DNA from: Candidatus Korarchaeum sp.
GTDB taxonomy: Archaea; Korarchaeota; Korarchaeia; Korarchaeales; Korarchaeaceae
Direction of reading: 5' to 3'
DNA length: 64,000 bases
Assembly: GCA_038888615.1 (NCBI GenBank)
Contig: JAWAID010000001.1
Location: 558,001 to 622,000 of the forward strand
This document shows positions 54,030 to 57,486 of this stretch, in pieces; the stretch's first letter is position 1; every line of letters begins with the position of its first letter. The notes beneath the pieces are model-generated. The model made no database searches. It was not told the DNA's origin and worked only from the letters and a program-made list of their open reading frames with translations. A program made the translations under genes and the position numbers.

Positions 54030-54560
54030 TGGTGGTAAGCGGCTCACGGATCTAATCCGAGGGCCCGATCTGCGGATGGCGCTGGAGCGTGTATGAATTG
54101 AGGTGATGGAGCCGGAAAGTCCTCAAGCAAAGCGGTGCCACCCTTCCTAGGGCTCCTCCCGCGTGATGATGGGGTCATGCGCTCCCGAGAGAGCAGGATC
54201 AAGGGTCGTAAGAGAGGTTGGCTTCGATATATCCCGACCCTCACGGAGACTCAGTCCCGTCCCCTCCGAGGGCATTCTCTCGGATAACTGACCATTGCGA
54301 AGTTTCCGATGAGCTCTCTCGGAATCGGGCTATAGGGGATGGTCAATATCGCTTTATTCCAATCGATCCCTCTCAGGGACCACGGTACCATAGAATCGAA
54401 TCTTCCCGGACACCTTTGAGCTCATCTAACTTCCTCCCGATCTCATCGAATCCCCTTCAAACTCCTCGTAACTTACGCTGATCCTAAGCCTGCGAGTCCT
54501 CCCCGGGGCTCTCTGAATCCGGTGGAGATGGTCGCGAGGATCCCGAGTACTTGCCATCCG
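54030..54560 (-). pseudogene. Possible decayed coding sequence (multiple frames)
   Basis: About 530 nt without an intact gene, yet protein-like stretches follow one another on the minus strand in shifting frames: TRRLRISVSYEEFEGDS, then FDEIGRKLDELKGVREDSI, then GIDWNKAILTIPYSPIP with RELIGNFAMVSYPRE, and later LLEDFPAPSPQFIHAPAPSA. Each ends in a stop and the next resumes in another frame. This could be a gene broken by several indels or just chance in GC-rich DNA. I do not recognise the parent family. Confidence 0.3.
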
Positions 54561-54610
54561 CCACTCCACGCTAACGGTGGGACCCGCCGGCGAACACCCG
54601 TCTGCAATTA

Positions 54611-54658
54611 GTATTACTAAATTCCCTAGATGGTAATATTTATAAGATACAGTAATAC
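54611..54658 (+). promoter_or_regulatory. Putative NikR operator and promoter of nikMNQO
   Basis: Three matching half-sites lie in this stretch: GTATTAC (54611-54617), GTAATA (54633-54638) and GTAATAC (54652-54658). The first two form TATTAC-N15-GTAATA, close to the GTATGA-N16-TCATAC layout of known NikR sites. The first and third are perfect 7-bp inverted copies. The likely TATA box TTTATAAG (54639-54646) lies between the second and third half-sites, so a bound repressor would block it. A nikR gene lies at the far end of this transporter operon. Confidence 0.65.
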
Positions 54659-54678
54659 CTCCCCATCCGGGTGATATT

Positions 54679-55293
54679 ATGCACATCCCCGACGGCTTCC
54701 TGGACCCGGCCGTGGCGCTGACCCTCTACGCGGTGTCCTTAGCTGCGGTGATCTACTCGGGTAGGAGGTACTTCAGGGGGGGTGGCGACATACACTACCT
54801 CTCCGTGACGGCTGCAGCTATATTCGCCGCTCAGATGTTGAACTGGCCGATACCAGGCGGTACCTCAGCTCACTTCGTTGGTGGGGCATTCGCATCGATA
54901 CTGATAGGTCCCTTCGGAGGTTGCTTGGCGATGTTCATGAACCTGCTCGTCCAATGTCTCCTGATGGGGGACGGTGGCATAACAGCCCTGGGAGCCAACG
55001 CGTTCAACATGGCGGTAGTGGGTGTGTTCTCGGGCTACGCCATATATAAGGCCGCTCTGAGATACCTGGGTGAGGGCAGAAAGTTCTTATCAGCGTTTCT
55101 GGCGGGCTGGCTGAGCATAACCCTGGCCGCGGTCACCTGCGGCGTGGAACTGGGTCTCTCCCCGAGCTTCGGGTATCCCCTGGCGGTGACCGTACCCGTG
55201 ATGGGGTCGTGGCACCTGGCCTTGGGGCTGGTAGAGGGCCTGGCCACGGCGATGATAGTAACCTACCTATCCGGCAGGGGGTTGAGATTGTGA
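54679..55293 (+). CDS. nikM: Nickel ECF transporter substrate-binding membrane protein NikM (CbiM family)
   Basis: A 204-residue S-component. The N-terminus MHIPDGFL provides the metal-binding Met-His. Family motifs NWPIPGGTSAHFVGGAFAS and MGDGGITALGANAFNMAVV are intact across about six helices. CbiM (cobalt) and NikM (nickel) are close relatives; nickel is chosen because of the hydrogenase maturation genes upstream and NikR downstream. GGGTGA precedes the ATG by 4 nt. Confidence 0.9.
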   Translation: MHIPDGFLDPAVALTLYAVSLAAVIYSGRRYFRGGGDIHYLSVTAAAIFAAQMLNWPIPGGTSAHFVGGAFASILIGPFGGCLAMFMNLLVQCLLMGDGGITALGANAFNMAVVGVFSGYAIYKAALRYLGEGRKFLSAFLAGWLSITLAAVTCGVELGLSPSFGYPLAVTVPVMGSWHLALGLVEGLATAMIVTYLSGRGLRL

Positions 55294-55553
55294 GGAGTTA
55301 CCTCGCCATAATCCTGTTGGTGCTGATAAGCCCTCTCTTCGGGGTCATAGGTGCTAACGTAGTGGGCTACAGGGAACCGTTGGACGTAGCGGCCGAGCTC
55401 ATCGGCATGGAGGAATCCGAACCGATATGGAGCGGGATATTCCCTGACTACACGTTACCGGGGCTGCCCGATGAGTTAGCTTACGTAATAGCTGGGCTCG
55501 TGGGAGTGGGGGTCCTCCTGCTGCCCTCCCTGGTAAGGAAGGCGAGGCCTTGA
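55290..55553 (+). CDS. nikN: Nickel transporter small subunit NikN (PDGLE-like)
   Basis: An 87-residue protein with an N-terminal helix (about 5-25), an external segment with PDYTLPGLPDELAYV matching the PDGLE-type region, and a C-terminal helix. It is the small accessory subunit needed for metal uptake. The GTG at 55290 overlaps the nikM stop (GTGA). Confidence 0.85.
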   Translation: MRSYLAIILLVLISPLFGVIGANVVGYREPLDVAAELIGMEESEPIWSGIFPDYTLPGLPDELAYVIAGLVGVGVLLLPSLVRKARP

Positions 55554-56275
55554 GGAGGAGCATCGAGAGGGTATTCGAAGAAGCCTCGAGGTCCTTCTAC
55601 GATTGGCTTTCCTCGATGGAACTCTCAGTCGGAAGGCTTCACGCGAATCCACTCGCATCCTTCCTCTCCTGCGTGGTTGCAGTATCGCTGGCTTCCTTCT
55701 CATCGAGGGTATCGCAAGTCCTCTTCATAATGGTCCTTTCTTCAATTATCCTCGTTTTTTGCAATGTTAAGAGATTCAGGAGGTACCTGAAGCTTTCTCT
55801 GGCCTGGTTCTCCTTCACCTTGGTCATAATGCTGCCTAGGATGGTTCAGGAGATCGGAACCATCCTCCTGCCACTGAGGGTGGCCGCAGCTCTCCTGACG
55901 CTGAGCGCCTTCATCGAGCTGGTGGGGGCCAGGAGGCTGATGAACGGGATCGATGGGCTGCTAGCGCCCCTCCTCGGGGGTAGCCTAGCCACCGCTCTCG
56001 AGGTGATGGTGAACCACATCGGTAGGTACGTGAGGTCGCTCGGCAGACTCGTGTTGGCCAAGGCCTCCAGGCTGATTGAGGGAGGTTTGACCGGAGATTA
56101 CTCGATAATCTCGCTCGCAGCCTCGGATCTCTTCTTCAGAGGATCTAGAGATGCTTTTTACACATCTTTGGTGCTGAGGTCGAGGATGTTCGAAGCTGGC
56201 TTGAGCAACAGCCCGAGGGATACCTCCATCATCCTCGCTATAGCGTTTACTTATACCCTCACCCTGTTGGCTTAG
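55550..56275 (+). CDS. nikQ: Nickel ECF transporter transmembrane protein NikQ (CbiQ family)
   Basis: A 241-residue T-component with about five helices. It couples ATP hydrolysis in NikO to NikM. The usual Ala-Arg-Gly coupling motifs are degenerate; the second may be VLRSRMFEAGLS near 210. The family call therefore rests largely on position, size and topology. The TTG start overlaps the nikN stop by 4 nt. Confidence 0.84.
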   Translation: MRRSIERVFEEASRSFYDWLSSMELSVGRLHANPLASFLSCVVAVSLASFSSRVSQVLFIMVLSSIILVFCNVKRFRRYLKLSLAWFSFTLVIMLPRMVQEIGTILLPLRVAAALLTLSAFIELVGARRLMNGIDGLLAPLLGGSLATALEVMVNHIGRYVRSLGRLVLAKASRLIEGGLTGDYSIISLAASDLFFRGSRDAFYTSLVLRSRMFEAGLSNSPRDTSIILAIAFTYTLTLLA

Positions 56276-56283
56276 GTGTCCCG

Positions 56284-57138
56284 ATGGAGCTGTGCGCATC
56301 TGAAGCGAGCTACACCTACCCGGACGGTACCAAGGCCGTCGACAGGGTCAGCTTGTGCGTACGCTCAGGCGAGGTAGTCTGCATCCTCGGTCCCAACGGG
56401 TCCGGGAAGAGCACCTTGCTCCTCCTACTGGCCGGTCTCATCAGGCCGACTTCTGGCAGCGTCACGCTCGATCGCGTGGAACTGGAGAGCGTAGCCGGGT
56501 ACAGGAGGATCTGCGGTGTCCTCTTCCAGACACCTTCGGACCAGCTGGTAGCGCCTACCGTCGAGGAGGATGTGGCCTTGGGGCCTAGGCAGCTCAAACT
56601 GGGTGATGAGGAGGTCAGAGGGAGGGTCAGGTCATCCCTGGAGAGGTTCGGTCTCATGGGGTTCGAGGGGAGGTCCCCGTTTAGGATCAGCGGGGGAGAG
56701 GCGGCTAAGGTTGCCTTGGCTGGGTTGGTAGCACTGGACCCTCAGATATACCTGCTCGATGAACCGAGCTCCTCCCTGGACAGCGAAGGGATAGAGGCAT
56801 TGAAGGGATTACTGAGGGAACTCAAGGAAAGGGGGAGGATAATAGTGGTAGCGACGCAGGACTCCGATTTCGCTTCAGAAGTGGCGGATAAGGTCTACAT
56901 CATGAAGGAAGGCAAGATAATCGCTGGAGGTGGCTTAGAGGTCCTGAGCCAAATTCAGCTCGAGGAGGTGGGAATCAGGACACCTACAGCCTTAAGGATA
57001 TACAGGAGACTATCACTACCTCTTAGCGATCCTCCGGTGAATCTGGAGTCCCTGATAGATGCTCTAAGGAAGCTCCTCTCCACCCCCCAGAGGGATCAGG
57101 AAGGGCTTGATGGTACTCACGGTCCTCAGAGCCTGTAA
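56284..57138 (+). CDS. nikO: Nickel ECF transporter ATPase NikO (CbiO family)
   Basis: A 284-residue ATPase. Walker A is LGPNGSGKSTLLLLLAG, the Q-loop lies in CGVLFQTPSDQLVAPTVEEDV, the signature is ISGGEAAKVALAG and Walker B is IYLLDEPSSSLD. Where nearly all ABC ATPases have a switch histidine (STHD), this one reads VVATQDSDF, so His is replaced by Gln. The C-terminal ~60 residues are an extension. Its last 75 nt overlap nikR on the other strand. Confidence 0.93.
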   Translation: MELCASEASYTYPDGTKAVDRVSLCVRSGEVVCILGPNGSGKSTLLLLLAGLIRPTSGSVTLDRVELESVAGYRRICGVLFQTPSDQLVAPTVEEDVALGPRQLKLGDEEVRGRVRSSLERFGLMGFEGRSPFRISGGEAAKVALAGLVALDPQIYLLDEPSSSLDSEGIEALKGLLRELKERGRIIVVATQDSDFASEVADKVYIMKEGKIIAGGGLEVLSQIQLEEVGIRTPTALRIYRRLSLPLSDPPVNLESLIDALRKLLSTPQRDQEGLDGTHGPQSL

Positions 57139-57486
57139 CTCCGTGAAGAGCTGCCTGACCCTTGAGAGAGATCCTAGGACGATCACCACTTCCAAGCACC
57201 TCTCCTCATCCACGTGAACGTGAGATGTAGACCTTATCAGATCGAAATACTTATGCTGGATCTCCGTCACATCGGATCCCCTGTGGTGATCGTAGACGAG
57301 GAGTATGGCCCCAGCTACCTCCTTATCCACCTCCGAGAGGACCCAGTACCTCTCCGCTATGTAGAGGGATATCGCCTCGGATATGGCCTTGGACCTGCTC
57401 CTCACGTTCGTATGAGAGAGCAGATCATTTAACTTATCCATCAAATCGCTCGGTATAGATATAGCTGTCCTCGAGACTCCCTTCAT
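57064..57486 (-). CDS. nikR: Nickel-responsive regulator NikR
   Basis: A 140-residue nickel sensor. The ribbon-helix-helix part is VSRTAISIPSDLMDKLNDLL with SRSKAISEAISLYI. In the ACT-like metal domain the nickel ligands are at His78, His89, His91 and Cys97, in QHKYFD and STSHVHVDEERCLEVVIVLG, the same spacing as His76/87/89/Cys95 of E. coli NikR. It should repress nikMNQO when nickel is plentiful. ATG 57486 has AGGTGA five bases upstream; GTG 57495 is an alternative. Confidence 0.95.
   Translation of the reverse strand: MKGVSRTAISIPSDLMDKLNDLLSHTNVRSRSKAISEAISLYIAERYWVLSEVDKEVAGAILLVYDHHRGSDVTEIQHKYFDLIRSTSHVHVDEERCLEVVIVLGSLSRVRQLFTELQALRTVSTIKPFLIPLGGGEELP

Follow-up and report, generated by a model that had tools for sequence, protein, structure and literature searches.

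What controls the nickel transporter genes nikMNQO in this archaeon, and how many operators lie before nikM? We analyzed a window (the whole stretch of DNA under study) of 64,000 nucleotides. The initial annotation of this DNA had described three half-sites for the nickel-responsive regulator NikR before nikM, with a TATA box between the second and the third, and had proposed that the third half-site allows two overlapping binding modes. All three half-sites are present (they start at 54611, 54633, and 54652), and the TATA box is where it was placed. The second half-site had been written as GTAATA; its position is right, and those are the first six bases of the full word, GTAATAT. We also found a fourth half-site, which pairs with the third. 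Our main reading, to which we give a probability of about 70%, is that two NikR-type operators stand here in tandem (O1 and O2; Table 1) and would control nikMNQO.

Table 1. Features of the nikM promoter, the nickel operon, and the related ZnuA-type operon.
Feature	Position	Strand	Remarks
Half-site 1 of O1	54611..54617	+	GTATTAC; 7-bp palindrome about its central base; KTATTAC in 5/5 clade genomes
Half-site 2 of O1	54633..54639	+	GTAATAT; at the expected BRE position, abuts the TATA box; invariant in 5/5 clade genomes
Operator O1	54611..54639	.	29 bp, GTATTAC-N15-GTAATAT; geometry shared by family relatives
TATA box TTTATAAG	54639..54646	+	From the sequence; TTTTTAAG/TTTTTAGG in relatives
Half-site 3, first half of O2	54652..54658	+	GTAATAC; GTATTAC in four other clade genomes; 6/7 positions invariant
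Half-site 4, second half of O2	54674..54680	+	ATATTAT; ends in the AT of the nikM ATG
Operator O2	54652..54680	.	29 bp, GTAATAC-N15-ATATTAT; half-site 4 weakened in the window's genome
nikM/cbiM	54679..55293	+	ECF transporter substrate-specific subunit; PF01891, 208.5 bits
nikN-like small membrane subunit	55290..55553	+	PDGLE domain, borderline: PF13190 27.1 bits, cut-off 27
Putative nikQ	55550..56275	+	T-component by position only; no Pfam (even E=10) or NCBIfam match
nikO	56284..57138	+	ECF ATPase; ABC_tran; similarity to TIGR04520, TIGR01166
nikR	57064..57486	-	Nickel-responsive ribbon-helix-helix regulator at the operon's end, convergent with nikO
ZnuA-type operator	G000:C1:849386-849414		Perfect palindrome GTATTAC-N15-GTAATAC, then directly a TATA box and the operon
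ZnuA-type operon	L195 2524-5493	-	ZnuA-type binding protein, FmdE-family protein, ATPase, ABC-3 permease

Among the transporter subunits, M and O are clear, N is borderline, and Q is assigned by position. The 3' ends of nikO and nikR overlap by 75 bp (57064-57138). With hypF and hypD upstream, the nickel operon adjoins the genes for maturation of [NiFe] hydrogenase. The ~580 bp from hypD to the operator (54030-54610) contain neither a convincing gene nor a match in Rfam, and an Rfam search upstream of nikM for a riboswitch or other known RNA gave no match up to E=1.

Half-sites 1 and 2 form an inverted pair that overlaps the core promoter of nikM, as had been proposed. The TATA box shares one base (54639) with half-site 2, and we expect transcription of nikM to start near 54667. 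The two half-sites had been placed 21 bp apart; the actual distance is 22 bp from centre to centre of the 7-bp words (29 bp outside to outside), and 21 bp is the norm elsewhere in archaea. These words are far beyond chance. Counting both strands, GTATTAC occurs twice in the 64 kb, both times before nikM. In first-order Markov simulations of 300-bp sequences, 0.02% of cases contained a pair at 22 bp with no more than one mismatch, 0.2-0.6% had three half-sites inside 48 bp, and 0 of 20,000 had two separate 22-bp pairs. Half-site 2 is at the expected BRE position and positions 54601-54680 are just 32.5% GC, so these AT-rich words might be core promoter elements (BRE, TATA box, proximal element) instead of operators. 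We give this idea hardly any credence: the exact spacing of the pairs is kept across divergent spacers, these pairs are nearly restricted genome-wide to metal-uptake promoters, and in some archaea they lie downstream of the TATA box.

The fourth half-site is best seen by comparing five genomes (the window's genome, G000, and G005, G010, G011, and G012), which form the clade that has half-sites 3 and 4. In all five, half-site 3 starts at -27 and half-site 4 at -5 from the ATG of nikM. Half-site 4 reads GTATTAT in the four relatives and ATATTAT in G000; its seventh base is the T of the ATG, so the consensus C is impossible there. The distances between half-sites 1 and 2 and between half-sites 3 and 4 are 22 bp in 5 of 5 genomes, while the distance between half-sites 2 and 3 varies (19, 20, 19, 20, and 19 bp, in the order given above). 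Given one variable gap between two fixed ones, half-site 3 most likely belongs to a second operator, downstream of O1, and a tandem of two like operators is probably the right as well as the simplest reading of the four half-sites. In O1 as in O2, the half-sites are separated by about two helical turns, as in NikR operators.

The same distances bear on the proposal that two overlapping modes of NikR binding share the middle one of three half-sites. As that proposal needs, half-site 3 does exist and is conserved, and such an arrangement is present in a nikM promoter from the Thermofilaceae (L082), which has three half-sites spaced evenly by 21 bp, from -59 to -11 relative to nikM. We regard L082 as a real candidate for a shared middle half-site. 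At the window's locus, however, the spacing of half-sites 2 and 3 is 19 or 20 bp and variable, next to two invariant spacings of 22 bp, and the fourth half-site accounts for the third. The proposal started from a spacing that was off by one and missed the fourth half-site, and it finds no support in the relatives. It is probably wrong; indeed, we consider a shared middle half-site here to be very improbable.

It is rather unlikely, though less so, that O1 is the sole working operator, with half-sites 3 and 4 as remnants of common ancestry and of the translation start context. O2 is confined to a single clade, half-site 4 shares bases with the ATG and is degenerate in the window, and the word RTATTATG is slightly more frequent there than expected (7 occurrences versus 3.1). 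But the half-sites are kept and the DNA between them is not. Across the five genomes, half-sites 1 and 2 are invariant at 13 of 14 positions, as compared to 2 of 30 in the spacers (p=2.7e-8). For O2, where the evidence comes from this single clade of five genomes, two of them nearly identical upstream, half-site 3 is invariant at 6 of 7 positions (p=8e-5) and the part of half-site 4 before the ATG at 4 of 5 (p=0.0014), while the spacer between them is invariant at 1 of 15. Also, RTATT precedes 0 of 42 other gene starts in the window (starts were called crudely), and half-site 4 is found only where half-site 3 is.

Next we consider how far the 22-bp spacing extends. The initial annotation had suggested looking for the half-sites before related nikM genes, and a 22-bp pair is indeed present in 16 of the 19 family relatives that have nikM. 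Among relatives in the genus, 13 of 15 have it; of the other two, G014 has a 21-bp pair and G003 has no nikM match. In further genera, the spacing is 22 bp in G016, G017, and G020 (two genera), and we found no clear pair in the upstream regions of nikM from G022 and G023 (another genus). More broadly, in 78 nikM loci from a public collection of genomes, pairs that have no more than one mismatch cluster at 20-22 bp: there are 30 of these, as compared to ~0.06 in shuffled controls (~0.02 pairs per distance). There are 22 pairs at 21 bp, 4 at 22 bp, and 4 at 20 bp, and all four 22-bp pairs come from genomes closely related to the window's. A spacing of 22 bp therefore appears to be characteristic of this lineage; in other archaea, which are thinly sampled, 21 bp is the commonest. 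We asked if the length of the NikR linker, judged by eye, could be the cause, and rejected this: genomes whose NikR has the shorter linker use 21 bp (G014) and 22 bp (G001, G004, G006, and G015). Four loci from the Desulfurococcales (L074, L078, L099, and L109) have GGTGCAC-like repeats and no GTATTAC pairs upstream of nikM; perhaps this is a different operator.

The orientation of the half-sites is free. GTATTAC and GTAATAC are, central base aside, one 7-bp palindrome read from two strands, and the relatives have inverted GTATTAC/GTAATAT (as in the window), GTAACAC/GTAATAC, or fully direct GTAACAC/GTAACAC pairs. The asymmetric version of the half-site, GTAACAC/GTGTTAC, occurs inverted, direct, and everted. 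Since a ribbon-helix-helix dimer is two-fold symmetric, a half-site can flip without changing the geometry of the site. Inversion of the half-sites is no requirement in this lineage. Everted NikR sites in delta-proteobacteria were noted in 2004 (PMC545781).

If these words are operators, then they should be rare elsewhere. Our statements about whole genomes, including the 1.67 Mb genome that the window comes from, rest on pattern searches. In that genome, KTAWTAY-N15-RTAWTAY matches in three places only: O1, O2, and an operon with a ZnuA-type protein. A control pattern has 0-1 matches per genome. The pattern was drawn up with the window's ATATTAT in view, so the match to O2 in this genome is not independent; in G005, G010, G011, and G012, both O1 and O2 are matched, and O2 has the better word GTATTAT. 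When we scanned 20 whole genomes with GTRWYAC-N15-GTRWYAY, the matches were almost only at nikM and at the ZnuA-type operon. The others were a hydrogenase site in G020, two matches in G021, and one likely chance match each in G020 and G009. The hydrogenase site (L194, G020:C9:275347-275375) is a direct repeat, GTAACAC-N15-GTAACAC, before the gene for the small subunit of a [NiFe] hydrogenase, with hypD divergent.

The ZnuA-type operon encodes the ZnuA-type protein (PF01297), the ABC-3 permease (PF00950), and the ATPase (PF00005) in one gene run. Orthologous operons have a 22-bp operator in G000 and G011 (inverted), in G007 (everted), and in G017 and G021 (direct). In G014, the operator is at 21 bp before both this operon and nikM, so the spacing agrees within the genome. 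In G005, the operator before this operon is degenerate. ZnuA-type promoters from outside the family (G026, G027, G189, G202, and G275) have no convincing pair. The shared operator places this ZnuABC-type transporter in the same predicted regulon as nikMNQO, and a nickel-linked role is likely; as to the metal that it would carry, it could be a second nickel importer.

The expected reader of these operators is the NikR encoded beside nikMNQO. Both of its domains are above their cut-offs (PF08753, 76.4 bits with a cut-off of 22; PF01402, 21.2 bits with a cut-off of 20.5), and it is similar to NikR from P. horikoshii (2bj1; E=2e-21). All four nickel ligands are present, as had been reported: His78, His89, His91, and Cys97, with the same 11/2/6 spacing as in E. 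coli, whose ligands are His76, His87, His89, and Cys95. It scores below the NCBIfam cut-offs for NikR (102.2 bits instead of 111 for NF002169, and 61.9 instead of 175.45 for TIGR02793), but these cut-offs are naming rules and not defining features, and we view it as a divergent member of the family. It is thus a plausible cognate regulator in the same gene cluster. A 22-bp pair before nikR, which might indicate autoregulation, was not found.

Alternatively, another regulator, such as a NikR paralogue, might read the operators, and the metal might be zinc. The paralogue (G000:C2:77096-77437; L148, L204) is of the same family and lies behind a separate znuCB-like pair. It resembles a NikR homologue that lies beside ZnuABC in Methanothermobacter and was suggested to be zinc-responsive (PMC3087415). 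Six relatives in the genus with the 22-bp operator have no close orthologue of the window's NikR. Four of these have a different NikR (33-38% identical), and in two (L153 in G008 and L154 in G009) the nikM operator is intact and only the ligand-poor paralogue was detected. Missing contigs could explain why these six lack a close NikR. Against this alternative, the paralogue has no counterpart of the first histidine ligand (it probably senses another metal), we found no such operator in the 5.5 kb around its znu genes in six genomes, and a NikR gene with all four ligands adjoins nikMNQO throughout the tandem-operator clade. We rejected the paralogue as the reader because no such operator lies at its own znu locus, and we consider the alternative as a whole to be improbable.

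With NikR as the reader, the tandem operators suggest how nickel might shut off its own import. From the sequences, we infer that NikR binds in a nickel-dependent manner, that it represses, and that O1 and O2 cooperate. Each GTAWTAC half-site would be read by one two-fold-symmetric ribbon-helix-helix dimer, and as the half-sites are 22 bp (about two turns) apart, one NikR tetramer would span each operator. O1 would cover the BRE and touch the TATA box, and O2 would begin shortly after the TATA box and reach the start codon. (Archaeal repressors commonly cover the BRE and TATA box or else the start site.) The centres of the four half-sites are at 0, 2.1, 3.9, and 6.0 helical turns, all on one face of the DNA, and the centres of O1 and O2 are 41-42 bp or ~3.9-4.0 turns apart, so that both tetramers would sit on one side. 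O2 has two mismatches to GTAWTAC in the window, O1 has one, and the ZnuA-type operator has none; by this measure the ZnuA-type operator would have the highest affinity, then O1, then O2, and O2 would be the weaker site in the window's genome. When nickel is plentiful, Ni-NikR would fill O1 first and block TBP and TFB. At higher occupancy, it would fill O2 and block the entry of the polymerase or initiation, which could give stepped or tighter repression. In other words, the two operators probably act as a double lock through which nickel turns off its own import.

Both the words and the design resemble known NikR systems. The half-site GTATTAC matches the published words TRWYA/TRTTA (PMC5385501) and GTGTTAC (PMC545781). 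The operators of delta-proteobacteria, GTGTTAC-N13/14-GTAACAC, have a similar half-site word, the same design of two half-sites, and the same placement before nikMQO operons; everted pairs, as among the window's relatives, occur in Desulfotalea and Desulfovibrio vulgaris, and a predicted site at hydAB in Desulfovibrio desulfuricans uses GTaTTAC (PMC545781). Unlike these described bacterial sites, which are 27-28 bp overall, the window's are 29 bp (N15), with a second tandem operator over the start codon, an archaeal BRE/TATA context, and direct-repeat pairs in relatives. The nikABCDE operator of E. coli, GTATGA-N16-TCATAC, is also an inverted repeat with one NikR tetramer across two turns (PMC7055735); the half-site in the window is GTATTAC instead of GTATGAT, its operators are one bp longer overall, and there are two of them, not one. 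The consensus for Helicobacter pylori NikR, TRTTA-N15-TAWTA (PMC5385501), agrees in its core (TATTA/TAATA), but there the pentamer centres are 20 bp apart instead of 22. Other archaeal nikM promoters, with GTATTAC-N14-GTAATAC, have the same half-sites, and several abut the TATA box with the second one; in contrast, they have a spacing of 21 bp and mostly a single operator. The archaeal NikR motif that we see in nikM promoters may have been predicted in an earlier publication.

These promoters are a natural experiment in how a tetrameric repressor measures DNA: the orientation of the half-sites changes freely, while the spacing is fixed in each lineage and differs by one bp between lineages (20, 21, or 22). 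Taken together, we tentatively suggest, at less than even odds, that NikR in this lineage has a 22-bp operator with free orientation, stepped control from tandem sites, and a ZnuABC-type transporter as a second nickel importer. The analysis gives a predicted nickel regulon for a barely cultured group of archaea, and it includes a ZnuABC-type transporter that annotation would label as a transporter for zinc or manganese.
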